DNA of 64,000 nucleotides from a virus: positions 62,001 to 126,000 of IMG/VR virus record IMGVR_UViG_3300045256_000050; one strand, 5' to 3'. Positions 11,489 to 32,036 of this stretch are shown one piece after another (positions within the stretch are counted from its first letter, which is position 1; each line of letters opens with the position of its first letter). The position numbers and the translations under genes were made by a program. The notes beneath the pieces are model-generated. The model saw only the letters and a list, made by a program, of their open reading frames with translations, searched no databases and was not told the DNA's origin.

Positions 11489-13699
11489 ATGACTCAACAA
11501 CAGAACGTGAGCCTGGGCAGTTACATCGACGCCCTGCATACAAAGATTACGCAACTGGAGGCAACGGTTAACGAGATGGCGGTGGACGTGAAGTCTGCCC
11601 GCCGCACCAAGTTCCCGAAGAAGACCCAATCTCCGTCGTTGCACAATATGTCCCGTGCCCTGTGCGTGTCCACCCTGGACCCGCTGAAGGAGAACCGGGT
11701 CCGCTTCTACCACCCCGTTTTACACTCCCCGGACACGCCGATCAAGTCCCTGCCGTTCGCCAAGCCCGTCAGCACGATGGGCGGGTTCGACGACTGCGGC
11801 TTGAATTGGGTGCCGCCGCCGGGATCGACCATCTGCATGTTGTTTGAGAACGGCGTCCGGTCGCAGCCGTACTACATCGGGACGATGTGGCACCGGGACC
11901 GTGGGCCGGGCGGGAGCAAGTTCGGCTTCCCGGTTCAGGAATACTATCAGGTCTACAGCGGCCACCGGAAGGGCTACCTCGTCGGCCCGAACGACGAGTC
12001 CCAGGTTCTCCCGCCGTGGAACACCGAGTCGTACAACGGCAAGGACTTCAACTCCCTGCGTGAGTTCGTGAACAACTCCGAGGAGCAACGCCGCCTCACA
12101 TACCCGAACATCTACGGGTTCAAGACGCCTGAAAAACACATGCTGAAGATGGTGGACGGTGACGCCAAGTGTAACCGCCGCTGGAAACGTATCGAGATCA
12201 TGTCCGGTTGCGGCAACTGGATGATCTTCAAGGACGATCACATCCACTACGGCGGGCAGTGGTCCCACCCGAGTTGTCCGCCGACCCCCGGCGGTAGCGA
12301 CCTGGGGCCGTGTTCGGAAAACCAGGGGGCGTTGCCGTACTTCACCGACCCGCACGGCAAACCGATTGAAAAAGAGGACAACTGCGACGACCCGATCCTG
12401 GGCGGGCACCCGAGTACGCCCGACCCGAACTCGAAGTATTACAAGTCGCAGAAGGGTGCCAACAAATACTTCAAGCACCAGAACGAGTGCCGCCCGTACC
12501 GTGGGCCGGGTACGCCGCAGAACAACAAGTGCGACCTGCCGCAGTCGGGTGTGCAGATTCTCTCGATTGGCGGGCACACGATGGTGTTCGACGACTCGGT
12601 TGAGGAACCCCGTGGCAAGCCGATCTGGGAGCGGTCGATGGATCAGTTCGACTTCGGCTGCACGGACAAGTTCGAGGGCCGGATGTACATCAAGTCGGCC
12701 ACGGGTCACGCCTTCATCATGAACGATAAGGAGGAGGACACGGGCCTGCGTGGGAAGGACAACTACATCCGTTTGCAGACGGCGACGGGCAACAAGATCG
12801 AGATGAACGACGAGACGATTGGCTCGCCGGGGTGCATCCCGTGTCCGCCGAACTACGCTGGTGAGAACCGTGGTATTCACCTTCAGTCCACGAGCAACCA
12901 CCAGATCAACATGGTTGACCACATGAACAAGCAGTGCGGCCCGTGCCGCACCGAGGGTGGCACGCCGCAGGCGAAGGCGACGAAGGCGTACATTCAGATT
13001 CGGTCCGGGTACGGGCTGGAGATGCGGTACAACGACGACAACAGCCAGGAGGAGACGCAGAACCAGTGGATTCAGATCACGCACCCGCAGTGCGTGGACC
13101 CGCAGAACGACCCGAAATGTAACCGGGAGCGTGGGCCGCACTTCCTGCGGTTCCAGGGTCGGCCGCAGGGCCAGCCGGGCGTTGTTATGCTACGGGCCGG
13201 TGGTCACGCCATCCGACAGACGTATGACATGGACATTGTTTTGGTCGGGGATAAAGATAAGAACCCGTCCGACAAGTTTACATATGTTTCTAAGCGGCAC
13301 ATTCGGGCGACGGAGGAAACTGACTTCCGGTATGCCGGTGATCTACATATTCTCTTTGCCGAGAAGTACATATTGCTGATGGCCGGTCGGGACTGCCCGC
13401 CGCCTGCTGGCAAGAAGTGTTGTGGTCCCTGCCTTTACCCGGTCATTCTCGGCCGGTGCCCGGTCATCTGTCCTCTCACCGGCATTGTTCACTGGACCGA
13501 GATGGCTATGAGCGAGCGTGTGTTCGCCTCCGGTTACATGGCACCGCCGTGTCCGCCTGCTCCTGGTTGCTCGGGTCCGGGAGCCAAGAAGGGCTGCAAG
13601 GAGGATGACGAGCAGACGCAGGACATTGACACGGGCAACGGCTCGGTCACTGTCGGCGGCGGCTTGAACTTTAACGCCACCGGAGGCCCGACCTTATGA
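11489..13699 (+). CDS. Baseplate spike protein, gp5-like OB-fold plus beta-helix, no lysozyme domain seen
   Basis: Protein of 736 residues. After an N-terminal coiled-coil-like stretch (about 5-35) comes an OB-fold region: NRVRFYHPVLHSPDT (about 71-85), LPFAKPVSTMGGFDDCG, and PPGSTICMLFENG...PYYIGTMW (about 110-135), as in T4 gp5 and VgrG. The remainder has repeated short beta units (for example GGHTMVF, TGHAFIMND, TGNKIEMND, SNHQINMVD), fitting a beta-helix needle. T4 gp5 has a lysozyme domain between these two parts; no such domain with its Glu-Asp-Thr pattern is evident here. The protein is unusually rich in Cys and Pro (CGPCRTEGG, KKCCGPC). It overlaps the gp25-like gene by 4 bp. Confidence 0.85.
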   Translation: MTQQQNVSLGSYIDALHTKITQLEATVNEMAVDVKSARRTKFPKKTQSPSLHNMSRALCVSTLDPLKENRVRFYHPVLHSPDTPIKSLPFAKPVSTMGGFDDCGLNWVPPPGSTICMLFENGVRSQPYYIGTMWHRDRGPGGSKFGFPVQEYYQVYSGHRKGYLVGPNDESQVLPPWNTESYNGKDFNSLREFVNNSEEQRRLTYPNIYGFKTPEKHMLKMVDGDAKCNRRWKRIEIMSGCGNWMIFKDDHIHYGGQWSHPSCPPTPGGSDLGPCSENQGALPYFTDPHGKPIEKEDNCDDPILGGHPSTPDPNSKYYKSQKGANKYFKHQNECRPYRGPGTPQNNKCDLPQSGVQILSIGGHTMVFDDSVEEPRGKPIWERSMDQFDFGCTDKFEGRMYIKSATGHAFIMNDKEEDTGLRGKDNYIRLQTATGNKIEMNDETIGSPGCIPCPPNYAGENRGIHLQSTSNHQINMVDHMNKQCGPCRTEGGTPQAKATKAYIQIRSGYGLEMRYNDDNSQEETQNQWIQITHPQCVDPQNDPKCNRERGPHFLRFQGRPQGQPGVVMLRAGGHAIRQTYDMDIVLVGDKDKNPSDKFTYVSKRHIRATEETDFRYAGDLHILFAEKYILLMAGRDCPPPAGKKCCGPCLYPVILGRCPVICPLTGIVHWTEMAMSERVFASGYMAPPCPPAPGCSGPGAKKGCKEDDEQTQDIDTGNGSVTVGGGLNFNATGGPTL

Positions 13700-14127
13700 C
13701 AACGAAACCGAAGTTCATCGGGTGCCAGTACCCGTTGATGAAGACGCCTCGGGGCATCATGGCCCAGAAGAACGGCGTTGACCAGATCAAGGCCGACATG
13801 CTCCAACTCCTGCTCACCAACCCCGGCGAGCGGGTGATGTTGGCTGACTACGGTGTGCCGTTGCGGAAGCTGATCTTCGAGCCGAACGACGTTGGGCTGG
13901 AGATTCAGGCCCGGAACATGATCGCCGAAGCTATTACTAAATGGGAGCCACGGGTTGTTCTGCAACAGGTTCAGGTGAGTTCGGTCGTCGATATCGGCGA
14001 CCTCGCCCCGGACGACCCCCGTGAAGACACGCCGCACGTCTTGTCGATCAAGATATTGTTCTACGACCCGCAGAACATTACGGAAGTGCAGGAATTGAAA
14101 CTCGAAGTGCCACTAGGGAGCGTCTAA
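13696..14127 (+). CDS. Baseplate wedge protein gp25-like
   Basis: Protein of 143 residues with the GPW/gp25 family pattern: QIKADMLQLLLTNPGERVML (about 30-49), then DYGVPLRKLIFEP, and a C-terminal region with strands ending in LKLEVPLG. gp25 is the sheath-initiating wedge component of T4-type baseplates, P2 (gpW) and injection systems. It overlaps both neighbours (ATGA before, 1 bp after) and directly precedes the gp6-like gene, exactly the usual order. Confidence 0.93.
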   Translation: MTTKPKFIGCQYPLMKTPRGIMAQKNGVDQIKADMLQLLLTNPGERVMLADYGVPLRKLIFEPNDVGLEIQARNMIAEAITKWEPRVVLQQVQVSSVVDIGDLAPDDPREDTPHVLSIKILFYDPQNITEVQELKLEVPLGSV

Positions 14128-15680
14128 TGCAAGCAGGATGTCCGGTAGTAGTCGTACCTTACGACCAGAGTAGGTTAATCAAGAATCCGAACTTGGTGTC
14201 CATCAACTACACCAACCAGGACTTCTGGTCGATGAAGGCACGCCTTGTGGACTACATCAAGGAGAAGTTTGCGGACGATTTCAATGACTTCGTTGAGTCG
14301 TCCATCGCCATCATGTTGATCGAGAATTGGGCGTATATCGCAGACACGCTCTCGTTCAAGATCGACCAGATCGCAAACGAAATCTTCATCGATACCGTCA
14401 GTGAAACCGACAACGCCTTCCGCCTGTCGCAACTCGTCGGGTTCAAGCCGACCCCGCCGATTGCGGCCCGGAGCTTGTGGAGCGCCACGTCCACCCAGGT
14501 TCTCGAAACGGACCTGACCATCGACGTGCCGGTAGCCATCGACATCACGACCGAAGTCGGTGCCCGGACCATCGAGCTTTTCGCCGCCGACAGCAACAAC
14601 AACCCGATCTTTAACGAGCCGATCATCATCCCGGCCGGGAGCTTCATTAACACGTCCATCGTGGGCGTCGAGGGGCAGACCCGTGAGCAGATCGAACGGG
14701 GCGACGGGTCGATCAACCAGTTCTACCAGTTGGGCTTCGGCCCGGTGATCTGGAACTCGATCCGGGTGTACGTTGACGGGGTGCCGTGGGAGCAGGTGGA
14801 TTACTTCACCGATTCGCAACCCCGGCGGGAGTTCCGGGTGGAATATGACCCGGATTACAACGCATTCATCTTGTTTGGAAACAACCGGGCGGGTATGATC
14901 CCGTCTAACAACTCCGAGATTCGGATTCTGTACCGGACGGGCGGTGGCGTGGCCGGTAACATCGTGACCGGATCGGTGGAATTGCAGAGAAACTTCGTCC
15001 TTCCTGGGTTCGATTTGCGTATCCCGGTGACGTTCCGAAACTATACTAAGGGTGAGTTCGGGTACGCTGGCGACGGCATCGAAGACATTAAGAGAAAGCT
15101 GCCGCCGTACCTCAGAACGCAGAACCGCTGCGTGACGGGCGACGACTACCAGACGTTCGCCAACCAGTTCGTGACGCCGTACAACGGCCAGATCGGCAAG
15201 GCGACGGCGGTGTTGAGAAACTACGGGTGTGCGGCGAACATCGTTGACATCTACGTTCTGGCCCGATCCGAGGAAGACCAGTTGGTCGAGGCCGGGAACG
15301 AACTGAAGCGGGCGTTGAGCGATGCCCTCAGTGAAGTCAAGATGTTCACCGATTACGTCTGCATCAAGGACGGGTCGGTCATCGAGGTTGACGTGCAGAT
15401 CGACCTGACGATGGACAAGTTCTATAAGAAGTTCGAGGACGAGTTTAAGCAGCGGGTGACGAACCGGCTGGTGACGTTCTTCTCACTGAACAATTGGGAC
15501 TACAGCCAATCGCTGAAGGCCATTGACATTGTGAAGGAAGTGTCCGACATCAAAGAGATCAGGACGGTGGACGTGAACCTCGTGACGGACGACGAGGACA
15601 ACTCCGGGCAGTTGGTGGTGGCTCAGTTCTACCAAATCATCCGTCCCCAGGTGGTCGAAGTTAACTTCATCTACGAGTGA
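14127..15680 (+). CDS. Baseplate wedge protein gp6-like (baseplate J family)
   Basis: Protein of 517 residues. The start (LVSINYTNQDFWSMKARLVD, about 23-42) and the motif around SSIAIMLIENWAYIADTLSF are the N-terminal helical region shared by T4 gp6 and baseplate J-type proteins, followed by FIDTVSETDNAFRLSQLVGF. The C-terminal part (about 330-500) has the two-layer alpha/beta pattern with TGDDYQTFANQFV and EVDVQIDLTM. gp6 dimers form the inner ring of the wedges. Starts on the last base of the gp25-like gene. Confidence 0.92.
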   Translation: MQAGCPVVVVPYDQSRLIKNPNLVSINYTNQDFWSMKARLVDYIKEKFADDFNDFVESSIAIMLIENWAYIADTLSFKIDQIANEIFIDTVSETDNAFRLSQLVGFKPTPPIAARSLWSATSTQVLETDLTIDVPVAIDITTEVGARTIELFAADSNNNPIFNEPIIIPAGSFINTSIVGVEGQTREQIERGDGSINQFYQLGFGPVIWNSIRVYVDGVPWEQVDYFTDSQPRREFRVEYDPDYNAFILFGNNRAGMIPSNNSEIRILYRTGGGVAGNIVTGSVELQRNFVLPGFDLRIPVTFRNYTKGEFGYAGDGIEDIKRKLPPYLRTQNRCVTGDDYQTFANQFVTPYNGQIGKATAVLRNYGCAANIVDIYVLARSEEDQLVEAGNELKRALSDALSEVKMFTDYVCIKDGSVIEVDVQIDLTMDKFYKKFEDEFKQRVTNRLVTFFSLNNWDYSQSLKAIDIVKEVSDIKEIRTVDVNLVTDDEDNSGQLVVAQFYQIIRPQVVEVNFIYE

Positions 15681-15682
15681 GA

Positions 15683-18600
15683 ATGGCTGAGAAGAACTAC
15701 AATGACAATCCAAGAGTAACCGACACGGTTGTCTTCGATTTTACAACTCCCGACGCAGAAGGGTGCCTCACGTCCGATCCGTACAAGGTGGATCGGCTGG
15801 TGGTCTACTACGTCGAGCGGAACTTCCTCGGCAACAACTTCGGCGAATACGAACAAGTAAAATACAACGACACGCTCCTGTCTCAGACCCTTGCGGCCGA
15901 GCAGTTGGCGTGTACCGCACCTACCCCGGCGAACATTTTCGCTGCCCAGCAGCTAAGAAACGAATTGGAGTCGAAAGCTCAACGGAACCAGTTCTTCTTC
16001 AAGGATGCCGTGCCGGTAGAAACCGTTGGGACTCCACTTAACCCGGCGTGGCTCTCGTCTGACGAGGCCAACGCCCAAATCGAACACGTCACTGAAGATG
16101 AGGATGGGAACCCTCAGTTCGGCCGGTTCCGATTTAAGTGGATGCCCAACGGCTCCGTGCGGGAAGGCGACTACTTCATCTGTTGGACGTGGACCCCACT
16201 GCCAGCGGGTGACAGCCTTTCCGCACACGAATCATTCAGTATGTTGGGCGACCCTCGGGCCGTCATCACCATCCCGTCCCACATCACCCCGGAAGAGAAG
16301 TACGAGGTTCTGTTAGAACGCTACCTGCCGGAGATGTACAAGAACTATCTGGCGGACAAGGACATCACGCCCGAGACGACCGACAAGCTCAACCGGGCGG
16401 TGGCGAAGGGCTTCAAGTACCTGGAAGACTTGGCGAACCAGATCATCGACCTGTACGACGCCAACGCCCTCCATGAGAGCCTGTTGATCTACCTGTCGAA
16501 CCTGTTCAACCTCAAGCTGAAGTCCGACGACCCGACCCTGTGGCGGCGTCAGATCAAGGAGGCGATCACCCTGTTCAAGAAGAAGGGGACGCTCCAGGGC
16601 TTGCGGGATGCGTTCGCCCAGGCGGGGATGAAGCTCGAAAAACTGACTCAACTGTGGCAGGTGGTTTCGCCTTACACCTGGGTGGAGTCGTTCCGTGTTA
16701 AAGACAGCCCGGTGTTCACCCTGAGCAAGCGGGCACTGCCGGTTGACCCGGACAACTTCGGCCTGTGGATTCGGCGGGAGGGCGACGGCGTTTACCAAGA
16801 AGTGCAGAGCGACTGCGTGATCTTCGAGGATACCGATTGCAACTTCGCCACCCGGATGACCTGGGTTGGGGACGAACTGTCGTCGAACCCGATCAGCCTG
16901 TTCGAAGGCGACATCATCAAAGTGATGTACAAGTACAAGGAAGTCCCGGCCGGGCAGCAGTCCATCGAGAACTACATCCGTTCTCTGGAGTTGGCCGACG
17001 AGCGGGACGAGGTAGACCAGGAGTTCCCGCCGAAGAACTGGAACGTGAGAGTGATTGAGGAAGATGACCCGCTGTTCAGCGTGGTCGTCCCGGTCCGCCA
17101 CCCGTTCCACGAGGCGTTGGTGTTCGGGTGGATTCGCACGGAATTCCCGTACTCCGAAAACGTCTATAACATGGAAGAATATAACGGTTCGACCCGTGAG
17201 ACGGGCGACCCGTGTTTGATTGACAAGTCGTTCACCGACCCGTGCGGGGCGTGTATCGGCAGCAAGTTTAACATCGACGTGTCGGTGGAGTCGCTGAGCG
17301 ACGACCGGCTGAGCGAAGTCCGGGACATCATCCGGGAGTACACGCCGTTCCACGCCCAGGTTCACCGCATCAACTTCTACGGCTCGGTCAACGAGTTCGT
17401 GCCGCCGCCGGTGGAAACCATCGAATGCCTCGTGACCTACCGTGTCACAGACATCGTTCTGTCGGGTAACTCCAACCCATTCTTCACCCGCATCATGCCG
17501 GACGGCTGGAACCTGGAAACTCTCGGCGTGGCCCGTGACGCCCTGGCCGAGAACACGCTTGTTGTTAGTGAAACTTCCGGTATTGGCTACAACCCACGGA
17601 TTGCGGTCGTCACGCCGAACGTGAACCTTCAGAAGATCGGGTTGAACCTAGCGAAACACGTCTTCGAGGTACTGTCCCCGTCGTCGAACGCCGGGTCGTA
17701 CACAATCAGCAATCCGATCATGGAGACGGCGACGGTGGACGGCGGGGTGAGCGAGCCGATCAACGAGGCCATGTTCACCTTCCAGTTGTCTAACATCACC
17801 TACGACAACAGCCAGACGATCATCACCCAGGACGACAAGTTCAGCTTCACGTCCGACTCGGTTGACTTTGTATCGCTCGGCGTGAAGACGTTGTGGGACG
17901 TGGACAACACCCCGAACTACACGGGCGGGTCGTGGAAGGTGTCGATCCCGGCCTATGACGCCACGCCGTATGAGATTAAAGAAATCGTCGAGGGCGTGCT
18001 GATCCTGGCCGACCCGAACCGGACGCTGCCGACGACGGCCACTTCGAGCATCACGTTCGAGTTGTTGGATGACACGGACGTGACACGGGGCAGTGCCGTG
18101 GACGGCAGTCTGGAAGTCGAACGGTACGGTCGGGTGGACTTGAACGACACGGCCATCGTGGACATCCGGGAGTTCGTGCAGGTGAACGACAAGTTCATCT
18201 ACAACAACTTCGAGTACCGGGTGAGCGGGCTGGACGATCAGGAATTCATCATCGAAGACTATGTTGATGGTGATGTCAGCGGGGCGACCGTCGAGATTCG
18301 GCGGCGGCTGGTTGAGAATGACATCGGCTTCTTCGGCTACGCCGGGTTGAAGCTCCAGACGGCGGTTGACTACGAGAACTCGTTGGGGATTCTGAACGGC
18401 GAGAACGGCCCGGAAGACGAGGACGAGATCACTGACAACAGCCAGTTCAAAGAGAACTTTCTGGTGAAGATCGGGGACGACTACTACAAGATCGTCGCCA
18501 TCAACGCCACGGACATCACGCTGGACGGGCCGTCGAACGACTGGATGACGCTGGATGCGGGCGGGACGCTCGTCAACTTCTCGATCCACCAGTTCGTTGA

Positions 18601-18829
18601 GACGCCCGTCGCTACCTCGTTCATGGTGTTCGATCAGATCGACCGGCGGGGGCGTGACACGGTGGTGCGGGAAACCTTCTCGACCGTCACCGAGGATACC
18701 GAAGTGGTGGCGTTCGCCACGGGGGAAGAACCCCGGCCGACCGGCTTCTTCGATAAGGTCGAGCAGAGCGAGAAGGTGAGTTACACAATCGAGTATAAGA
18801 GTGGCAAGAAGTCCACCGGAGAAGTATGA
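15683..18829 (+). CDS. Large baseplate wedge protein with P2 tail protein I-like region (gp7 position)
   Basis: Protein of 1048 residues. ATG 15683 is preferred over GTG 15677, which lies in the end of the previous gene. Residues about 200-345 (LERYLPEMYKNYL, then LYLSNLFNLKL-like and FKKKGTLQGLRDAFAQAGM) show the helical pattern of tail protein I, which connects wedges to fibres or plays the gp7 role in many contractile tails. The remainder is beta-rich, Asp/Tyr/Val-rich repeats suggesting several beta-sandwich domains (about 430-1040). Position after gp25 and gp6 matches gp7 in T4-like and injection-system loci. The C-terminal part could bind fibres or receptor (inference). Confidence 0.8.
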   Translation: MAEKNYNDNPRVTDTVVFDFTTPDAEGCLTSDPYKVDRLVVYYVERNFLGNNFGEYEQVKYNDTLLSQTLAAEQLACTAPTPANIFAAQQLRNELESKAQRNQFFFKDAVPVETVGTPLNPAWLSSDEANAQIEHVTEDEDGNPQFGRFRFKWMPNGSVREGDYFICWTWTPLPAGDSLSAHESFSMLGDPRAVITIPSHITPEEKYEVLLERYLPEMYKNYLADKDITPETTDKLNRAVAKGFKYLEDLANQIIDLYDANALHESLLIYLSNLFNLKLKSDDPTLWRRQIKEAITLFKKKGTLQGLRDAFAQAGMKLEKLTQLWQVVSPYTWVESFRVKDSPVFTLSKRALPVDPDNFGLWIRREGDGVYQEVQSDCVIFEDTDCNFATRMTWVGDELSSNPISLFEGDIIKVMYKYKEVPAGQQSIENYIRSLELADERDEVDQEFPPKNWNVRVIEEDDPLFSVVVPVRHPFHEALVFGWIRTEFPYSENVYNMEEYNGSTRETGDPCLIDKSFTDPCGACIGSKFNIDVSVESLSDDRLSEVRDIIREYTPFHAQVHRINFYGSVNEFVPPPVETIECLVTYRVTDIVLSGNSNPFFTRIMPDGWNLETLGVARDALAENTLVVSETSGIGYNPRIAVVTPNVNLQKIGLNLAKHVFEVLSPSSNAGSYTISNPIMETATVDGGVSEPINEAMFTFQLSNITYDNSQTIITQDDKFSFTSDSVDFVSLGVKTLWDVDNTPNYTGGSWKVSIPAYDATPYEIKEIVEGVLILADPNRTLPTTATSSITFELLDDTDVTRGSAVDGSLEVERYGRVDLNDTAIVDIREFVQVNDKFIYNNFEYRVSGLDDQEFIIEDYVDGDVSGATVEIRRRLVENDIGFFGYAGLKLQTAVDYENSLGILNGENGPEDEDEITDNSQFKENFLVKIGDDYYKIVAINATDITLDGPSNDWMTLDAGGTLVNFSIHQFVETPVATSFMVFDQIDRRGRDTVVRETFSTVTEDTEVVAFATGEEPRPTGFFDKVEQSEKVSYTIEYKSGKKSTGEV

Positions 18830-19302
18830 AACTTGAATCAAGAGTAGATGTATACGGTCACGTCTTTGGCGTGATCGATTACAAAGACGGACGGAGCGAG
18901 AGGTTCGACTTCCCCAACACGATCCTTCGTGGTGGGCGTCGTGCCCTGGCCCTGGGCCTCGCCAATCAGGTCGGGGACGCCTTCGAGTTCTACGTCACCC
19001 GCATGATGTTCGGGGACGGCGGGACGTTCAACGGCGTGAAGAAGTTTGTGAACGCCGACCGGAATGGGTTGTTCGGCGTTACCCGGCTGTCGAAGCCGGT
19101 GATTGCAAACATCGACATCAACGTGCCGACGCAGGTCATCTTTACCTCGGTCATCACGTTCGACGAGGCGGTTGGCGTCGTCCTGAACGAGATGGCCTTG
19201 CAGATGGCGACCGGCGACTTGTACAGCATGGTGACGTTCCCGGACTTGAGCAAGACTGAGGAAATGCAGATCACCTGGAACTGGCACATCTCTTACAGCT
19301 AA
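18826..19302 (+). CDS. Small baseplate/tail accessory protein (probable)
   Basis: Protein of 158 residues overlapping the wedge gene by 4 bp. It has the pattern common to small phage tail accessory proteins: a short strand with DGRSERFDFPNTIL, a helix with GGRRALALGLANQ, then FYVTRMMFGDGGT, and a strand-rich C-terminus ending MQITWNWHISYS. The unknown protein at 45597-46121 (minus) has a similar layout. Function inferred from position and general pattern only. Confidence 0.75.
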   Translation: MKLESRVDVYGHVFGVIDYKDGRSERFDFPNTILRGGRRALALGLANQVGDAFEFYVTRMMFGDGGTFNGVKKFVNADRNGLFGVTRLSKPVIANIDINVPTQVIFTSVITFDEAVGVVLNEMALQMATGDLYSMVTFPDLSKTEEMQITWNWHISYS

Positions 19303-19310
19303 AAGGTAAC

Positions 19311-19754
19311 ATGAAGACTGTTGAAGAATGGATTGCGAAGTGGAATGAGACTCGGCTGTTGACCAACCTGCCGGAAGAGAAAGTCAGGCCGACGGCCTGT
19401 GCGTTGTCCAACCAGATCGGCTACAACGAGCGGAGTCAATTCCTGCCTGCGTTCCAGCGGTTGTCCATCCCCATCCTGCGGCGGGTGTTCGGCGGGATGA
19501 AGGCTAAGAATGTGACATCCAAGTTGGTTGAGACGCCGACCAAGAGCCACGTCGTCAACCTAGACCCTTTCAACGTTACGGAACTACAGTATGACGGTCA
19601 TGGTGGATACAACCTTGAGTTTGAGGCCCAGCGGACCGCCGAATACTGTGTCAAGCTCGCCGAGTACATCGACGAGTTGGCTTCGAAAGTTGATGAATTC
19701 GTCCTGCTCGGGATCGGGTGGAACGGATCAAACGTCGTCCTCTATACTGAATGA
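19311..19754 (+). CDS. Unknown protein (147 aa)
   Basis: Starts MKTVEEWIAKWNETRLL after AAAGG, 8 bp downstream of the previous stop. It contains a Met/Lys-rich centre (RRVFGGMKAKNVTSKLV) and a helix-rich C-terminus with VDEFVLLGIGW. I do not recognise the family. It lies between a baseplate-type gene and a macro-domain gene. Confidence 0.75.
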   Translation: MKTVEEWIAKWNETRLLTNLPEEKVRPTACALSNQIGYNERSQFLPAFQRLSIPILRRVFGGMKAKNVTSKLVETPTKSHVVNLDPFNVTELQYDGHGGYNLEFEAQRTAEYCVKLAEYIDELASKVDEFVLLGIGWNGSNVVLYTE

Positions 19755-19761
19755 AGGAAAG

Positions 19762-20433
19762 ATGAAGATTTACTTAGCAGACATCAAGCCGCAACTGCGG
19801 ATCGCCTGGAAGAATGCCTTCAGGGGCGTAGAGAACGTCCAGGTGTACGAGCGGGGCATTGGCTCCATTCTCGACCTGGAGGTTGACGCCCTGGTCAGCC
19901 CGGCCAACAGCTTCGGGTTTATGGACGGCGGGATCGACGAGTTGTACTCGGAAACCCTCGGGTGGCATGTTTCGGAACGTTTGCAGGATCACATCGTCAA
20001 GGATTTCAACGGCGAGTTGCTGATCGGGCAGGCGACCATCGTGCCGACCGACCATGCGGTGTTCAAGTATTTGATCGCCGCCCCGACGATGCGGGTGCCG
20101 ACCCGTCTGCCGGACAACACGGTGAACGTGTTCCTGGCGACTCGGGCGGCGTTGTTCCTGGCGGACAAGATGGCAAAGCGTGGGCTACTGACTTCCGTGG
20201 CGTTCCCCGGCTTGGGGACGGGCATCGGGGCGGTATCCCCGGAGAAGTGCGCACTCCAGATGCGTGCGGCTTACGATTGGGTGTTCAACAACGAACGCCC
20301 GGAGATGGAGTGGAAGAAGGTTCTCGACCACCACACCTACCTCTACACTGGACTTCGGGCAACTAACACTTGGGAGATGTCCGATAACGACCCAGACCCG
20401 GAACTCGGGTGGGAAGACGAACTAGAACAATAA
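19762..20433 (+). CDS. Macro-domain protein (ADP-ribose-binding fold)
   Basis: Protein of 223 residues; ATG 19762 follows AAGGAAAG and avoids the long overlap of upstream in-frame starts. Macro-domain signatures are clear: VDALVSPANSFGFMDGG (41-57), GQATIVPTD (89-97), YLIAAPTMR (103-111) and AFPGLGTGIGAV (147-158). Macro domains bind ADP-ribose and its derivatives; some remove ADP-ribose from proteins or nucleic acids or hydrolyse ADP-ribose 1''-phosphate. In a phage this could reverse host ADP-ribosylation or capture NAD-derived signals (inference). The C-terminal 50 residues are acidic and variable. Co-directional with baseplate genes. Confidence 0.9.
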   Translation: MKIYLADIKPQLRIAWKNAFRGVENVQVYERGIGSILDLEVDALVSPANSFGFMDGGIDELYSETLGWHVSERLQDHIVKDFNGELLIGQATIVPTDHAVFKYLIAAPTMRVPTRLPDNTVNVFLATRAALFLADKMAKRGLLTSVAFPGLGTGIGAVSPEKCALQMRAAYDWVFNNERPEMEWKKVLDHHTYLYTGLRATNTWEMSDNDPDPELGWEDELEQ

Positions 20434-20445
20434 GAAAGGACGAAC

Positions 20446-20694
20446 ATGGACATTTCGCATGTAATGATTGGTTTCGACAAGCTGGAGGAAGCCCTGGGTC
20501 TGCGGGGCTACGCAACCATCGTGGCTTGTAAGGAACACGAAAGTGGGCGGCACTTAACTCTGCGTTTGATTTCAGAACGTGCCCCGAGAGAGATAAATAT
20601 CCAAGAAGGAGAGCCGCTGTCCAAGCTGGGTGAAGCCTACCGTCCGGTAGAAGTCGCCGAAGTGCAGGTGGTGAAGGCTCCCGCCATCGAGTAA
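20446..20694 (+). CDS. Small unknown protein (82 aa)
   Basis: Begins MDISHVMIGFDKLEEALGLR after AAAGGA. Mixed alpha/beta, hydrophobic VVK end. It sits between the macro-domain gene and a structural-looking gene, with 12 and 10 bp gaps. No family recognised. Confidence 0.7.
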   Translation: MDISHVMIGFDKLEEALGLRGYATIVACKEHESGRHLTLRLISERAPREINIQEGEPLSKLGEAYRPVEVAEVQVVKAPAIE

Positions 20695-20704
20695 AAGGTG
20701 AAGA

Positions 20705-21490
20705 ATGCCTCGTATTGAGCTAATCACAGTCCCACTGTACAACCCGACTGACCCGTACCACTTTGAGTTCGACAACATCCCGTTGAAGAACATCTTGCGG
20801 CGGCAGAACCTCATCAATCTGTCGCTCGACAACGTGATCGAGCAGATTCGGGATGCCATCGGCACGCAGGGGAGCATGGCGAACCGGCTCAACCAGTCGA
20901 TCAACGCCGACGGTAGTCTGAAGACGGACGCCATTGACGAGGCACTTCACAGCGTTGAGGAACACGAAGACACGGTAGACTATGTTCGTATGCTCCGGTC
21001 CGAGTCCGACAAGCTGGCGTTGATCGCCGACGAGGCGACCAACACTTCTTTGGAAATTCAGCTTGACGACGACGGGGATGATGTCGTAACATTAGACAAT
21101 GGTCCGGCGAGACTCGTCCCCAGCAACACGGTGACGTGGAGCGTCGAGTCCCCGAACAAGATCAGTGCAAATCTGGCGTTCCCGGCCGAGGCTGCCCACA
21201 AGCATTACTACGACCAGGAACCAGTTCCCGCCGATCTCACCGAGCCGGACTACATTAACTACAAGGTAAACTCAGCGGCCACGCCGTTCGTCGAAGGCAC
21301 CCTGCGTGTCTACATCAACGGCGTGCGGTTGTCCGCCACAACTTCCATCTACGTCCCAGGCGCACTGGTAAACGACCCCTGGACGCTGATGACCTACACG
21401 CCCGACTTCGAGAACGGCACGTTCGCCCTTTCTACCGCCGTGTCCGAAGAGGACGTAGTAAGAATTGACTATGACATCTCGTACATCTAA
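20705..21490 (+). CDS. Probable tail fibre or baseplate decoration protein
   Basis: Protein of 261 residues. Begins PRIELITVPLYNPTDPYHFE, has a helical segment (about 35-75), a long polar region, then a beta-rich C-terminal domain (about 165-261) with GTLRVYINGVRLSAT and TFALSTAVSEEDVVRIDYDI. The 'VYINGVRL...D.VRIDYD' pattern is common in phage fibre-associated and virion decoration domains. Good upstream AAAGGTGA. Its last 20 bp overlap the following glycosyltransferase-like gene. Confidence 0.65.
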   Translation: MPRIELITVPLYNPTDPYHFEFDNIPLKNILRRQNLINLSLDNVIEQIRDAIGTQGSMANRLNQSINADGSLKTDAIDEALHSVEEHEDTVDYVRMLRSESDKLALIADEATNTSLEIQLDDDGDDVVTLDNGPARLVPSNTVTWSVESPNKISANLAFPAEAAHKHYYDQEPVPADLTEPDYINYKVNSAATPFVEGTLRVYINGVRLSATTSIYVPGALVNDPWTLMTYTPDFENGTFALSTAVSEEDVVRIDYDISYI

Positions 21491-22046: not shown

Positions 22047-22556
22047 ATGCCAGTCCTGTCCGACGTTACCCGTGCCCGCCTCCTAGACGCCAACCAGAAC
22101 CCTCTTACGGAATGGCACGCAGTTTATAACCTAAAGCCGGAACTGTCGGGCGGGAACAGCATGTTCCTGGTGGACTTGGCCGTTGCCGCCCGGAACGACA
22201 GCTTCGGCTCGGCAATCGTCACCCGTGACCCGTTCAGCAACATGATGCTACTGGTGCAACGGTCCGGCGACAACCACCACAACTACTACCTGTTCAAGAA
22301 CTGTATCTTCCAGAGCTTCAATGCCCTGGATATTGCGGAAGGGGTTTGGTACGGGGAGACGACGTTCTACTGTCAGTTTTACGAGATTCACACGGGGGAC
22401 AGGCTCCAAATCATCCGGCCCATCAGAAGTCAACAATCACGGACCCAGGCTAATCCCGACACCGAGATTAGAAACAGGTTGCAAGACCTGGGGAGAAACC
22501 CGGATTGCGGCAGAGACTCTGATGGGCCGGTGGATTGGCTCAACAACGGCTTTTAG
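22047..22556 (+). CDS. Unknown protein (169 aa), probable virion component
   Basis: Starts immediately after the previous stop. Beta-rich, with FLVDLAVAARNDSFGSAIVT and MMLLVQRSGDNHHNYYLFKN, and an Asn/Arg/Asp-rich C-terminus. Its stop overlaps that of the converging deoxyribosyltransferase-like gene by 4 bp. No family recognised. Confidence 0.65.
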   Translation: MPVLSDVTRARLLDANQNPLTEWHAVYNLKPELSGGNSMFLVDLAVAARNDSFGSAIVTRDPFSNMMLLVQRSGDNHHNYYLFKNCIFQSFNALDIAEGVWYGETTFYCQFYEIHTGDRLQIIRPIRSQQSRTQANPDTEIRNRLQDLGRNPDCGRDSDGPVDWLNNGF

Positions 22557-23092
22557 ATCAAGCCGTAGGTGAACGACCAGCGGTCATTCTCCTTATGTTT
22601 ACCCTGGTTCACTTCGTCCAGGTAGTTATACAACTCGTCCCAAGACCCGAACATGAAGTCCAGCGGGATGAACCCGTAGTACCACAGCGGGACGTATTCC
22701 TTGCCCTGCGGACACATCAACAGTGTGGGCTTCTTTTGGTTGCTGCTGTTGATGATCTCGTGGTGCGTGCCGGTCGTGGGCACCTTCCGGGGAAGGTACG
22801 AGATCACGATGTCGGCCCGGTCCACCATCTTCAGGTCTTTCTTCACGAACTGGCGGGCGATCCGCTGCATCGTGTCGAAGTCCTTCTCGGCCTGAGCTTT
22901 CGTGAGTGAAGGCACCCACTGCTGCTTCGGGTCGTCGAACGGGTCGAACAGATCGAGGCCGAACCGCTCGGTCAGCACCTTCTTCGGTTCGGTCCGCCAG
23001 TTGTGGCCGGACGTGTCGTGTTCAATCGGCCCGGACAGGTAGACTCGCTGTCCGGCCAAGTAACTTGTCTTTCCTTCCGTGGACACGAACAT
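22553..23092 (-). CDS. Nucleoside 2-deoxyribosyltransferase-like protein
   Basis: Protein of 179 residues on the minus strand. Family marks: RVYLSGPIEHD (16-26) for the first strand and ligand loop; a long helix ending KKDLKMVDRADIVISYLP (about 84-101), and TTGTHHEIINSS (about 105-117) that holds the usual catalytic Glu position. The fold covers nucleoside 2-deoxyribosyltransferases and related hydrolases of nucleosides, nucleotides or cytokinin-type substrates. In a phage it might salvage bases, remodel nucleotides or remove a nucleotide signal. It is an opposite-strand insertion in the structural cluster, with its own start region shared with the divergent 23142 gene. Confidence 0.8.
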   Translation of the reverse strand: MFVSTEGKTSYLAGQRVYLSGPIEHDTSGHNWRTEPKKVLTERFGLDLFDPFDDPKQQWVPSLTKAQAEKDFDTMQRIARQFVKKDLKMVDRADIVISYLPRKVPTTGTHHEIINSSNQKKPTLLMCPQGKEYVPLWYYGFIPLDFMFGSWDELYNYLDEVNQGKHKENDRWSFTYGLI

Positions 23093-29081: not shown

Positions 29082-29987
29082 ATGCTCAACCTACCTATCG
29101 ACCTGACTCAATCCAAGAACACCTTGTTCTTGGGCATCGGGGGCGGCTTCGACATCTACGGGGCCGTCCCTTTGTTTGCGCAAAACCACAACGCCAACAC
29201 GAGACTCTTCTTCGCCAATGTCAACGCCTCGGTCAAGAGCGTGTTGAAGTTCCCCAGGGACGATCACCCGTGTCCCGAAGGCTTCCTGGCCGGGTGGCTG
29301 GAGAAGCAGGAATACAAAACCACCGTCTACGCCCTACCTCGTGCCGGTGTGATCCCAACCCGGAACATCCTGCACACCATCATGAAAGAACACGCCATTG
29401 ACACGATTGTGTGCGTGGACGGCGGGGTGGATTCACTGATGGTGGGCGACGAGGAAGGGGCCGGGACGATTCTGGAGGACTTCGTGACGATGCAGGCGGT
29501 GAGTGCCCTGCGTGTGGCGAAGGTTCTGGTCTGCCTGGGTTTCGGCACGGAGACGGACGAGGACGTGTGCCACAACCATGCGTTACAGAACATGGCGGCT
29601 CTGGCTGCCGACGGGGCGTTCTGGGGTTGTTCTTCACTGACGAAGGACGACCCGGAATACCAAGCCTATCGAGAAGTGTGCGAGTACGCATGGGCCGACG
29701 GGAGGCGTAAGAGCCACGTCCACACGAAAGTCATCTCGGCCGTCGAGGGGAAGTTCGGGAACGACTCTCTGTACTCGGACGTGGACCCGCAACTCGCCGG
29801 GAAGACGAACACAGTAAACTACATTAACCCGTTGATGCCGATCATGTGGTTCTACGATCTCGACAAGGTGCTGGCCCGTAACAAGCTGGCGAAGTTGTTC
29901 GAGAACACCAACCTCAGCACCGACGTGTTGATGTTGTACAGGTCTAACAAGTTACCACTGAGGGAGCGACAAGCTATTCCGCTATGA
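29082..29987 (+). CDS. DUF1152-like protein
   Basis: Protein of 301 residues. The N-terminus (NTLFLGIGGGFDIYGAVPLF, about 13-32) is a glycine-rich strand-loop of Rossmann type, and TIVCVDGGVDSLMVGDEEGA (about 107-126) with GTILEDFVTM follows. This layout matches the DUF1152 family as I know it, which has no firm biochemical role. It overlaps the next gene by 4 bp and follows the decoration genes after 3 bp. The family name is fairly likely, the function unknown. Confidence 0.6.
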   Translation: MLNLPIDLTQSKNTLFLGIGGGFDIYGAVPLFAQNHNANTRLFFANVNASVKSVLKFPRDDHPCPEGFLAGWLEKQEYKTTVYALPRAGVIPTRNILHTIMKEHAIDTIVCVDGGVDSLMVGDEEGAGTILEDFVTMQAVSALRVAKVLVCLGFGTETDEDVCHNHALQNMAALAADGAFWGCSSLTKDDPEYQAYREVCEYAWADGRRKSHVHTKVISAVEGKFGNDSLYSDVDPQLAGKTNTVNYINPLMPIMWFYDLDKVLARNKLAKLFENTNLSTDVLMLYRSNKLPLRERQAIPL

Positions 29988-30847
29988 GAATCCGAAAAGA
30001 CGAAAAGACTCGTAACAATTTCATTCGTGCAGGCGGGGTCTGGGTCCGGGACTTCACTAAACCCAACTCCATGCCCGTGACGCCGAACGCCCTGGTCCGT
30101 CCGGCCGACAAGCCGTTGATCGTGCAGAACGAGTTCCAGAACCGGGCGTTGAACATCGGCAACATCTGCGACGAGAAGTTGGTGTTCCCGAAGGTGGTCA
30201 TCATCTCCGACGGCTACTCGTTTGCCAAGCGGGTAGACTTCATCAACAGCCTGCCGAACGACGTGGCGGTCTTCGCCGTCAACCATGCGTTGAACAAGTG
30301 GCGGACGACCGGGTTCAAGAAGCCCGTAAACCTGTATGTGGTGAATAACCCGTACCCGGAGGCGACAAGCTACCTGCCGAGAAAGTCGAAATACTACCCG
30401 GCGTGCGTGGCGTCAATGCGGACCAATGCGAAGTTCCTGAAGGACTACAAGGGGACGACGTATGTGTACGAGCCGGTTCCCGAGGAAGGGTTCGGACAAA
30501 AGGGTGACAGTCTTTACTATGTTGATGACTACCGAAACCCGGTGTGTGCGGCGATTGGCCTCGCCTACCGGATGCGTGCCCAGAAGATCATGCTCGTCAG
30601 TTGCGACGAGTCATTCGGTGAGAAGAAGGACGGGGCTGAGGAATTACCGAACGGCCTCTATACCTATCCGCAGCAGTTGATGGCCCAGGAGTTGATCGAC
30701 GCCAACCTGTACTGGTTTACTAAGAAGAAGACCGGCGAGGCGAAGGCCGCAAACTACTCAGACGGCCCAGAAAACAAGCATGCTACATATATAACCCAAG
30801 ACGAGCAGGCATTGGCATTCTTTGCGGATGAAGATGAAGACGCCTAA
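29984..30847 (+). CDS. DUF115-like protein, possible surface-sugar enzyme
   Basis: Protein of 287 residues. VVIISDGYSFAKRVDFINSL (about 71-90) and NPVCAAIGLAYRMRAQKIML followed by VSCDES (about 185-210) have the layout of DUF115-type proteins ('GxGxS' style loop; 'A..LA..lG...I.LiG.D'), some of which act in surface glycan or flagellin glycosylation. The preceding part has YVVNNPYPEATSYLP. It is coupled to the DUF1152-like gene by a 4 bp overlap and precedes a glycosyltransferase region. Assignment moderate. Confidence 0.45.
   Translation: MRIRKDEKTRNNFIRAGGVWVRDFTKPNSMPVTPNALVRPADKPLIVQNEFQNRALNIGNICDEKLVFPKVVIISDGYSFAKRVDFINSLPNDVAVFAVNHALNKWRTTGFKKPVNLYVVNNPYPEATSYLPRKSKYYPACVASMRTNAKFLKDYKGTTYVYEPVPEEGFGQKGDSLYYVDDYRNPVCAAIGLAYRMRAQKIMLVSCDESFGEKKDGAEELPNGLYTYPQQLMAQELIDANLYWFTKKKTGEAKAANYSDGPENKHATYITQDEQALAFFADEDEDA
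30788..30795 (+). promoter_or_regulatory. TATATAAC element, candidate late-type promoter
   Basis: TATATAAC inside the end of the DUF115-like gene, about 117 bp before the ATG at 30912. One of several TATATAA elements noted; T4-type late promoters are short AT-rich -10 boxes. Distance to the next gene is longer than for the others, so this is weaker. Confidence 0.2.
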
Positions 30848-30911
30848 AGGATGTGCTGTGCGGGCCTGAATGAATGCAGTGCTTACACGGGTACATTCTT
30901 CGGAGGACTTA

Positions 30912-31244
30912 ATGAGTAACGAACGACCATCGTTTTCGCTACACGATTTCAAGAACTGGCTGTCCCAACAGAAGGATATGTCCGAGTTCTTCAACATCGA
31001 GAAACCCACCGCCTCGAAGGCAGAGGGCTTCATCGGGATGAGTGTGACCCCAAAGGTGGGGATGAAGAAGTTGCTTGAGAAGGCTCACGCCGACGACGGC
31101 GATGCGGAACAAATGGTTCACGAACTCGTCGAGGAAGGCGGCGTGATCGTTGACACGAAGGGCAAAGAACTCTTAATTGAGGTTGATTCGGGTTGTTTTT
31201 ACCTGCCCCGCTTCTGCGTCCGACTGGTTAAGGACGAGGAGTAA
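30912..31244 (+). CDS. Unknown protein (110 aa)
   Basis: ATG 30912 is preferred over an upstream in-frame start at 30870 because GGAGGA lies just before it. The protein begins MSNERPSFSLHDFKNWL, a helical start commonly seen in phage proteins, and ends in a strand-rich segment (GKELLIEVDSGCFYLPRFCV). Its last 72 bp converge with the end of the opposite-strand GT9 gene. Function unknown. Confidence 0.65.
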   Translation: MSNERPSFSLHDFKNWLSQQKDMSEFFNIEKPTASKAEGFIGMSVTPKVGMKKLLEKAHADDGDAEQMVHELVEEGGVIVDTKGKELLIEVDSGCFYLPRFCVRLVKDEE

Positions 31245-32036
31245 CGCCTTCCACATGTCGTCCACCGAAACCCGGCTGATGCACGCCTGATCGCCGGTTT
31301 CGCAAACATCCGTGCAATACGTTAGCCCTGTCTTGCGGCTGTGACAGCCCAGACAGGGCAATTCTTTTGCCGTCACCGGCACCACGTTACTGTTGAACAC
31401 CCGAGTGTTCGGGGCCACGCTCCCGAAGAACACCACCGCCGGAGTCTCGACGGCCTGGGCGACGTGGAACGGGAACGAGTCTACCCCCACGAACGCCTTC
31501 GCATCTTTGATGATGGTCGCCAGTTCGCCGACCGTCGTCTTGTTCCTCACGTCAACGTGGCTCGGGACGAAGTGGTCGCCCTCGCCGCCCACGCACACGA
31601 TCTGGTAGCCCGCATTATACAACCGAAGGGCGAGTTCCCGCCACTCGTTCTTGCCCCACGCCCGGCCGACCCAGCCTTCCGAAACACCGGCGTGGACGAC
31701 GACGTAGTTCACCACTTCCGGCTTGTTCACCGGGTCGTTCTTGACGAACAGTTCGCAGTCCTCGACGGGAACCCCGGCCTTGTCGGCGTAGCACTTCAGG
31801 AAGTTCTCGCTCTGGCGGGCCTCGTAGGCGGCGTCCAGGTTGATGACGAGATCGAACTGTCGTTGTGGGTCCGGCTTGATGATGAAGTCCACGAACGGGT
31901 TGCCGTGGAGGGAGTGGTGGCACTCGGTAGCGAAGTAGATTCGGCAGTCCGGGTACTTCTTTTTGAGGGCGGGGCAGACGGCGGCGGCTACGAAAACGTC
32001 GCCGGTCGAACCCATTCGGTTGATGAGGATGTCCAT
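31173..32036 (-). CDS. Glycosyltransferase family 9 (heptosyltransferase-like)
   Basis: Protein of 287 residues on the minus strand. N-terminal MDILINRMGSTGDVFVAAAV is the GT9 'R..aiGDvl...P.l' loop; NYVVVHAGVSEGW with W.k.eW follows (about 108-130), and KAFVGVDSFPFHVAQAVETP with AVVFFGS (about 183-210) is the ADP-sugar side ('D.g.mHlAaal..P.v.lFg'). A Cys-rich end (LPCLGCHSRKTGLTYC) resembles bacterial heptosyltransferases. GT-B enzymes of this family add heptose or similar sugars to LPS. In a phage it may modify host LPS or the virion. Its start abuts the upstream minus gene (1 bp overlap). Confidence 0.85.
   Translation of the reverse strand: MDILINRMGSTGDVFVAAAVCPALKKKYPDCRIYFATECHHSLHGNPFVDFIIKPDPQRQFDLVINLDAAYEARQSENFLKCYADKAGVPVEDCELFVKNDPVNKPEVVNYVVVHAGVSEGWVGRAWGKNEWRELALRLYNAGYQIVCVGGEGDHFVPSHVDVRNKTTVGELATIIKDAKAFVGVDSFPFHVAQAVETPAVVFFGSVAPNTRVFNSNVVPVTAKELPCLGCHSRKTGLTYCTDVCETGDQACISRVSVDDMWKALLLVLNQSDAEAGQVKTTRINLN

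Follow-up and report, generated by a model that had tools for sequence, protein, structure and literature searches.

We analyzed a 64,000-nucleotide stretch of viral DNA (hereafter the window; bases 62001–126000 of the 244,986-base virus record IMGVR_UViG_3300045256_000050), in which a macrodomain gene lies at 19762–20433 on the plus strand, behind a block of baseplate and tail genes. The gene is an uninterrupted ATG-to-TAA frame with a product of 223 amino acids, and a ribosome-binding-like stretch (AAGGA) stands immediately 5′ of its start. A first-pass annotation, made from the DNA letters alone, had called the product a clear ADP-ribose-binding macro domain, and its identity as a macro domain is confirmed. 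The protein matches Pfam Macro (PF01661) with an E value of 3.3e-11 (43.6 bits against a curated cut-off of 22) and PHROG 2613 with an E value of 2e-56, and its AlphaFold2 model, based on a 38-sequence alignment, has a mean predicted local distance difference test score (pLDDT) of 89.5 and a predicted template modeling score of 0.85. Matches of this strength are far past chance, and 19762–20433 encodes a macrodomain. The C-terminus is a low-confidence acidic stretch in the model and has no GxHxH tail.

Among solved structures, the yeast protein YMR087W (Ymx7) ranked first by profile search, Foldseek and VIA-align alike. A search of the PDB with a profile of 12 phage sequences placed it at the top (1njr; also 1txz and 1ty8) with an E value of 4.6e-14, and TTHA0132 ranked behind it at 8.5e-10; Foldseek of the model gave YMR087W at 4.2e-12. 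With VIA-align, 184 residues were aligned to 1njr at a Z score of 19.5 and a root-mean-square deviation of 3.0, the runner-up reached 17.3, and the remaining rows shown were macrodomain structures at Z scores of about 14–17. DarG and MacroD hydrolases share the fold in this range and the loop-1 Asn and Asp, with scores below that of YMR087W. An identity as a DarG antitoxin was considered and rejected, as no DarT-like match was found by Pfam among the scanned neighbors and the DarG profile reached only an E value of 0.0034. Judged by sequence and predicted fold, the protein appears nearest to the ADP-ribose-1″-monophosphatase YMR087W, and we say "nearest to" rather than "an" ADP-ribose-1″-monophosphatase because yeast H145 falls on A106. 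The two proteins share the Asn-x9-Asp spacing of loop 1, whereas YMR087W is longer (284 amino acids) and has PTVVAP where the phage and bacterial branch has an invariant APTMR.

The residues of the predicted pocket are strongly conserved. Across 38 aligned phage and bacterial sequences, N49, S50, M54, D59, G67, E85, G89, A107–R111, A129, G156 and A164 are invariant, and D42, S46, P47, A48, F51, G52, G56, G57, L86, P113, L125, A126, G152 and G154 nearly so. Pocket loop 1 comprises S46–D59 (SPANSFGFMDGGID; 19897–19938), in which N49 and D59 align with N80 and D90 of YMR087W; these two, together with H145, we take to be the catalytic triad proposed for the yeast enzyme. An Asn/Asp spacing of this kind marks MacroD hydrolases. 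D42 (codon 19885–19887), the Asp of the "DA[IL]V" strand, was aligned to 2dx6, and the Asp at this position presumably contacts adenine, as in other macrodomains. The APTMR signature (residues 107–111) is encoded at 20080–20094, and pocket loop 2, G150–G156 (GLGTGIG; 20209–20229), identified from the profile alignment and the 38-sequence conservation, is presumably the diphosphate-binding loop of macrodomains. On these residues the pocket looks intact and enzyme-like.

The genes described from 13696 to 21490 lie on the plus strand. The baseplate block (13696–18829) comprises a gp25-type baseplate wedge gene (13696–14127), a baseplate wedge gene recognized by PHROG (14127–15680) and a Tail_P2_I gene recognized by Pfam (15677–18829). 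It is followed by a conserved tail gene of 158 amino acids (18826–19302; fiber-like at a sub-threshold level only), a 147-amino-acid gene (19311–19754) whose stop lies 7 bases ahead of the macrodomain start codon, the macrodomain gene, an 82-amino-acid gene (20446–20694) and a conserved 261-amino-acid gene (20705–21490). The 147- and 82-amino-acid genes had no family match in Pfam (E 0.1), PHROGs or NCBIfam, and the sole Pfam match of the 261-amino-acid gene was CDCP1_CUB_6 at an E value of 0.074, far under the cut-off. The description of the gene as lying between structural genes thus holds for the upstream side, where baseplate and tail genes stand, and does not extend to the immediate neighbors, which are without a significant family match. 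Scans with the 147-amino-acid protein returned none in phages, and the viral scan gave an identical protein and one weak match; a homologue of 220 amino acids (34% identity) occupies the same place in L185/L186 (L-numbers are labels of fetched relative loci or contigs). Promoter-like matches near the macrodomain gene were at chance level (2, against 1.0 with a standard deviation of 1.1 in shuffles), and the gene is therefore probably transcribed together with the tail genes. Downstream of the tail block, 29082–32036 holds a DUF1152 gene, a weak MptE-like gene and a glycosyltransferase-9 gene.

We compared the place of the macrodomain gene among related tail loci, which were fetched via two conserved tail genes (best 80 of 298, and 70 of 70) and amounted to 145 loci. 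The genes of 158 and 261 amino acids form the left and right borders of a slot; both were present in 112 of the 145 loci, leaving 62 slots after identical stretches were removed. Near-identical slots stay among the 62 (for example, L297–L299), and the counts are not independent events. The relatives repeat the order of Tail_P2_I gene, 158-amino-acid gene, 261-amino-acid gene and further conserved genes. The slot between the two border genes spans 9 to 1848 bp, with 26 of 62 slots at 200 bp or more and 36 at 190 bp or less. The junction before the 158-amino-acid gene measures −37 to 2 bp (none of 61 reach 200 bp), and the junction after the 261-amino-acid gene is at least 200 bp in 7 of 51 loci. 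Across the following stretch, where the window has two more genes, the distance is at least 200 bp in 32 of 40, and at the subsequent junctions in 0/42, 1/40 and 2/19. Size variation is concentrated at two places, and the macrodomain gene lies in one of them.

A macrodomain occupies only one of the 62 slots, that of L183, a contig almost identical in sequence to the window. The records of 14 relatives (24–459 kb) had no match to the macrodomain protein anywhere, and the same query recovers its gene in the window's record. In the closest relative lacking the gene (L184/L264), the 158-amino-acid gene is 95% identical, and blastn shows DNA of about 85% identity ending at window base 19289 and picking up again at 20426; the 147-amino-acid and macrodomain genes are therefore missing together, as a cassette (19290–20425, plus strand) that has no counterpart in L264. 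The macrodomain gene is optional cargo in a slot and no fixed part of the tail operon, because it occurs in 1 of 62 slots, has clean cassette borders against L264 and is found in 0 of 14 relatives' records. Its placement within the baseplate operon, as first annotated, stands insofar as the gene lies on the same strand behind the baseplate block, and fails in that the place is a cargo slot. The same counts bear on whether the product could be a structural component of the baseplate or tail in which the macrodomain serves only as a fold, a reading that its position in the tail block and the "tail protein" annotation carried by some macrodomain relatives would favor. Of the 62 distinct slots, all flanked by conserved border tail genes, 61 lack the gene; the slot is variable beside fixed border genes, and the pocket of the product looks intact. 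We therefore rejected a baseplate or tail structural part for the window phage, in which such a role is very improbable.

The slots differ in content: of the 62, 10 carry a LAGLIDADG endonuclease or what remains of one, 10 a SET-domain protein, four a member of the 82-amino-acid family and two a member of the 147-amino-acid family; the Pfam check covered five of the 10 endonuclease slots and five of the 10 SET slots, and the rest were assigned by homology to these. LAGLIDADG endonucleases with helix-turn-helix ends occupy the slots of L194, L199, L205, L209, L217, L275 and L305, and remnants those of L204, L302 and L307. Free-standing homing endonucleases in the slot suggest, without proof, a possible driver of its turnover. 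The L264 slot carries a helix-turn-helix end that resembles the slot endonucleases by eye; it was unreported by tblastn at 1e-3 and is not counted. SET-domain proteins of the lysine-methyltransferase type were found in the slots of L216, L225, L226, L243, L290, L297–L299, L303 and L326, preceded in eight slots by a partner of about 90 amino acids and accompanied in L226 by a glycosyltransferase. The second variable stretch of the window holds, on the reverse strand within the tail block, a nucleoside 2-deoxyribosyltransferase-like gene (22553–23092, Pfam). Contig L183 is identical to the window up to about base 20526 and then L264-like, its last 976 bases being 98.5% identical to L264. The switch (L183 bases ~16400–17276, window 20527–21400) lies about 100 bp right of the macrodomain gene and near the contig end, and it reflects either recombination at that point or an error in joining the end of the contig.

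Relatives of the macrodomain protein were detected in 33 phage and 48 plasmid records. Further relatives came from confirmed viral stretches (best 80 of 200 kept) and from bacterial and archaeal genomes (best 80 of 507 kept). The 173 loci with a macrodomain gene formed 98 clusters at 70% identity, 50 of them with viral members. Bacterial copies have no constant partner: within three genes, the top shared neighbor family, short-chain dehydrogenase, occurs in only four of 48 clusters. The window protein was unplaced in the tree, and single-protein scans with it returned one contig with an identical protein only and, in a second scan, none. "Appr-1-p processing" proteins of phiM12, RHph_TM16 and Mae-JY35 are 43%–45% identical to it and have other gene neighborhoods. 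Ten neighbors, chosen by size, were scanned, and seven were head, connector, portal or tail proteins, one was a ribonucleotide reductase and two were unmatched. A general rule that the family adjoins tail fibers was rejected, given these mixed neighbors and the position of the gene amid small genes of no assigned function in phiM12, RHph_TM16 and P106B. In Klebsiella jumbo phage FBKp24 (L012, 3496–6555), the macrodomain gene is the fifth after an RNA 2′-phosphotransferase gene; the phage Kp24 paper makes no mention of the macrodomain protein under the terms searched. In L024, a gene at 6381–6995 (plus strand) that overlaps the macrodomain gene gave the impression, by sequence, of an iron/manganese superoxide dismutase.

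One branch of the family, found in enterobacterial prophages and plasmids, is tied closely to the tail fiber. The macrodomains of Gifsy-1, SEN4/5 and E. coli prophages with the stf-tfa arrangement belong to the same family (34%–37% identity) and also lie beside tail genes; in Gifsy-1, SEN5 and Chuche, the macrodomain gene stands between the tail-fiber gene and the fiber-assembly gene. In a cluster of 34 prophage loci (L004, L005, L009 and 31 more), which are close relatives and whose counts are not independent events, the macrodomain and fiber genes overlap by 4 nucleotides in all 34, and the downstream gene is homologous to a fiber chaperone in all 33 loci that have one. A GxHxH motif C-terminal to the macrodomain occurs in 33 of the 34 cluster loci, as against 0 of 139 other loci, on a tail that also has conserved cysteines; HxH motifs bind iron in the T4 fiber tip. 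Gifsy-1-type proteins thus have a Cys-rich GxHxH tail and a fiber/chaperone lock, and the window protein has neither. When this tail was compared with the Stf tip in seven of the 34 loci, 0, 12, 0, 0, 4, 1 and 5 of 500 shuffles reached the score. Controls in four loci gave 70, 103, 4 and 69 of 300 against Tfa and 274, 9, 195 and 249 of 300 against the Stf shaft, so that two of the eight controls (L060 with Tfa, L009 with the Stf shaft) were low too. Residues 180–274 of the modeled prophage version, its tail, have a pLDDT below 50.

DNA similar to the Gifsy-1 macrodomain gene is present in 125 of 5426 complete E. coli genomes. Among six matches opened (L177–L182), the fiber-assembly gene came next in all six, and the gene before bore a tail or tail-fiber annotation in five and was a broken insertion sequence element in the sixth. 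The macrodomain gene seems to move with the fiber module, because it is found on unlike backbones (Gifsy-1 has a lambda-J homologue, SEN5 is of the Peduoviridae, and a further copy lies on a 110-kb plasmid). Outside the enterobacterial branch, L038 has its macrodomain gene directly behind a tail-fiber gene, and a scan with its protein returned itself only; L038 groups with a Flavobacteriaceae sequence at a support of 91/81, under the starred level of the tree, and its composition was flagged. Fiber adjacency may have arisen more than once. Titles and abstract openings searched in the literature gave no report of a macrodomain gene flanked by stf and tfa or of a macrodomain on a tail fiber, which is no proof of absence, and no stf-macro-tfa arrangement is named in the "macro domain" passages of PMC12724379, PMC12846349, PMC12571901, PMC6715854 and PMC8504454 or in the examined parts of PMC9503650, PMC7824862, PMC9700779, PMC13232231 and PMC11204291. 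We put forward, tentatively and as a rather unlikely reading, that part of the family has turned into a tail-fiber enzyme in enterobacterial prophages, made with the side fiber, joined to it through the needle-like GxHxH tail and borne on the particle, such that the first contact with a cell would already bring in an ADP-ribose-processing domain. On this reading, the window phage would carry a looser, cargo-slot version. For the enterobacterial branch, a virion-structural role is a live possibility.

These observations bear on whether the window protein itself might be a virion-carried enzyme, made with the tail genes and riding in or on the particle to meet the cell at the start of infection. 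Such an enzyme would fit the same-strand site inside the tail block, where promoter-like matches are at chance level, and the enterobacterial relatives that overlap the fiber gene, precede the chaperone and end in a fiber-tip-like GxHxH tail. Packaging of phage macrodomains encoded near virion genes has been proposed by Iyer et al. 2022 (PMC9503650); the terms "tail fiber" and "baseplate" are absent from the main text of that paper. The window protein, however, has the acidic low-confidence end in place of a GxHxH tail, family members also lie beside a ribonucleotide reductase gene or among small genes (phiM12, RHph_TM16 and P106B), and virion proteomics of a family member was not found in the literature titles searched. 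Carriage by the virion is therefore possible for the window phage and, on balance, unlikely.

Other genes of the window's record point to the chemistry in which the macrodomain may take part. A nicotinate phosphoribosyltransferase is encoded there (E value 1.3e-58; 384 bits against the TIGR01514 cut-off of 269.55), on the minus strand at record bases 176509–178535 (L332, 6509–8535), beside a frame that looks, on impression, like a methionine aminopeptidase. The record also encodes a Nudix protein whose closest matches are NudE and the ADP-ribose pyrophosphatases, at scores under the equivalog cut-offs, and has RNA-ligase matches at two places, one of DRB0094 type whose 143.9 bits fall slightly short of the cut-off (151.15). 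The genes for nicotinamide adenine dinucleotide (NAD) and ADP-ribose enzymes make ADP-ribose handling plausible, without proving a shared pathway. A role in host NAD/ADP-ribose chemistry is the most likely function class for the macrodomain protein. Within this class, an ADP-ribose-processing cargo enzyme fits best, because the record also has the nicotinate phosphoribosyltransferase and the Nudix protein.

Specifically, we propose, at about even chances, that the gene encodes a cargo enzyme (moron) that cleaves 1″-substituted ADP-ribose to ADP-ribose during infection. The macrodomain gene and its 147-amino-acid partner would occupy a recombination-prone slot of the tail operon, and the product would be a soluble hydrolase with a macrodomain fold, from the family branch closest to yeast YMR087W. 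Its likely substrates would be ADP-ribose-1″-phosphate and ADP-ribose linked to acyl groups or acidic residues, converted to free ADP-ribose in the infected cell; cleavage may detoxify or reverse products of a host NAD-consuming defense or of RNA repair, and the phage Nudix protein and nicotinate phosphoribosyltransferase might handle the ADP-ribose and restore NAD+. Catalysis, substrate, timing and benefit to the phage are in each case what we infer.

Several observations weigh against this proposal. The NAD enzymes lie about 95–105 kb from the macrodomain gene and outside its operon, and the phosphoribosyltransferase appears to be accessory too, because its family occurs in only one of 10 relatives' records. 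No match to KptA (PF01885), NADAR or sirtuin was found in the window's record, which may be incomplete, nor to the PRPP (phosphoribosyl pyrophosphate)-synthetase N domain, so that the NARP1 pathway itself is unsupported. The match to the YMR087W triad is incomplete, in that N49 and D59 fit and H145 is replaced by A106 in the profile alignment, and a tail operon is an odd place for an early-acting protein, unless it is virion-carried or acts late.

A narrower variant would have the protein clean up after RNA repair, removing the 1″-phosphate from the ADP-ribose-1″-phosphate that arises when broken RNAs lose their 2′-phosphates. The nearest solved relative is an ADP-ribose-1″-monophosphatase, the record has the two RNA-ligase matches, and the FBKp24 family member follows an RNA 2′-phosphotransferase gene; against these stand the missing KptA match, with the caveat on completeness given above, and the distance of the RNA ligases (about 80 and 105 kb off). 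We regard this variant as distinctly unlikely. A Ralstonia jumbo phage has a macrodomain gene, a nicotinate phosphoribosyltransferase and RNA ligases together (PMC8504454). Pseudomonas phage Adele has a macrodomain gene downstream of its NARP1 genes, which rebuild NAD+; the authors of that study, who liken the protein to yeast Poa1p, suggest that it releases ADP-ribose for the pathway (PMC12846349). There the gene is near NAD+ genes, whereas the nicotinate phosphoribosyltransferase of the window phage is far off. A preprint offers a parallel, in that an enzyme inside an NAD-synthesis operon was traced because a related phage (84% identical) is without the gene. PhiKZ104, the macrodomain protein of phiKZ, is likewise from a jumbo phage; when its gene was knocked down, ChmA protein decreased whereas plaque and colony counts did not change substantially, and the authors read the gene as useful under other conditions or hosts (PMC12571901).

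The first-pass annotation had also suggested that the protein reverses host ADP-ribosylation or scavenges NAD-derived signals such as those of Thoeris-like systems. The general ADP-ribose role gains from the intact-looking pocket, the accessory position and the NAD/ADP-ribose enzymes in the record, and the specific Thoeris link is unsupported. One form of that link would make the protein a decoy or sponge that binds ADP-ribose (ADPR), or its imidazole or histidine adducts from Thoeris-type TIR proteins, thereby starving a macrodomain effector; a histidine adduct of ADPR is made by TIR proteins of this type. The pocket, looking intact, could bind such ligands, but its conserved catalytic-type N and D favor an enzyme over a sponge. 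A form directed at cyclic signals is weaker, since ThsA macrodomains bind ADPR and imidazole adenine dinucleotide (IAD) and not cyclic ADPR, whether 2′cADPR or 3′cADPR (PMC11204291). We consider a decoy quite improbable. Thoeris TM-macro ThsA is likewise a macrodomain of phage–host conflict, but on the host side, where it is a membrane effector that works with a TIR partner.

The idea of a phage macrodomain that acts on ADP-ribose during infection is largely in print already. Iyer et al. 2022 argue that phage macrodomains counter host NAD-derived signals and are often packaged in virions, particularly in contractile-tailed phages; they found them in 56% of the jumbo phages surveyed and state that, toxin-antitoxin pairs aside, there is no direct evidence that these proteins act on macromolecules (PMC9503650). 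For the proposed ADP-ribose-processing cargo enzyme, the window phage and its L264 relative form a natural present/absent pair, differing at a small slot whose contents lend themselves to comparison. The part of the family most worth following first is the fiber-locked prophage branch, whose stf-macro-tfa order is a laboratory-ready model for asking whether an ADP-ribose enzyme is carried on the tail fiber.
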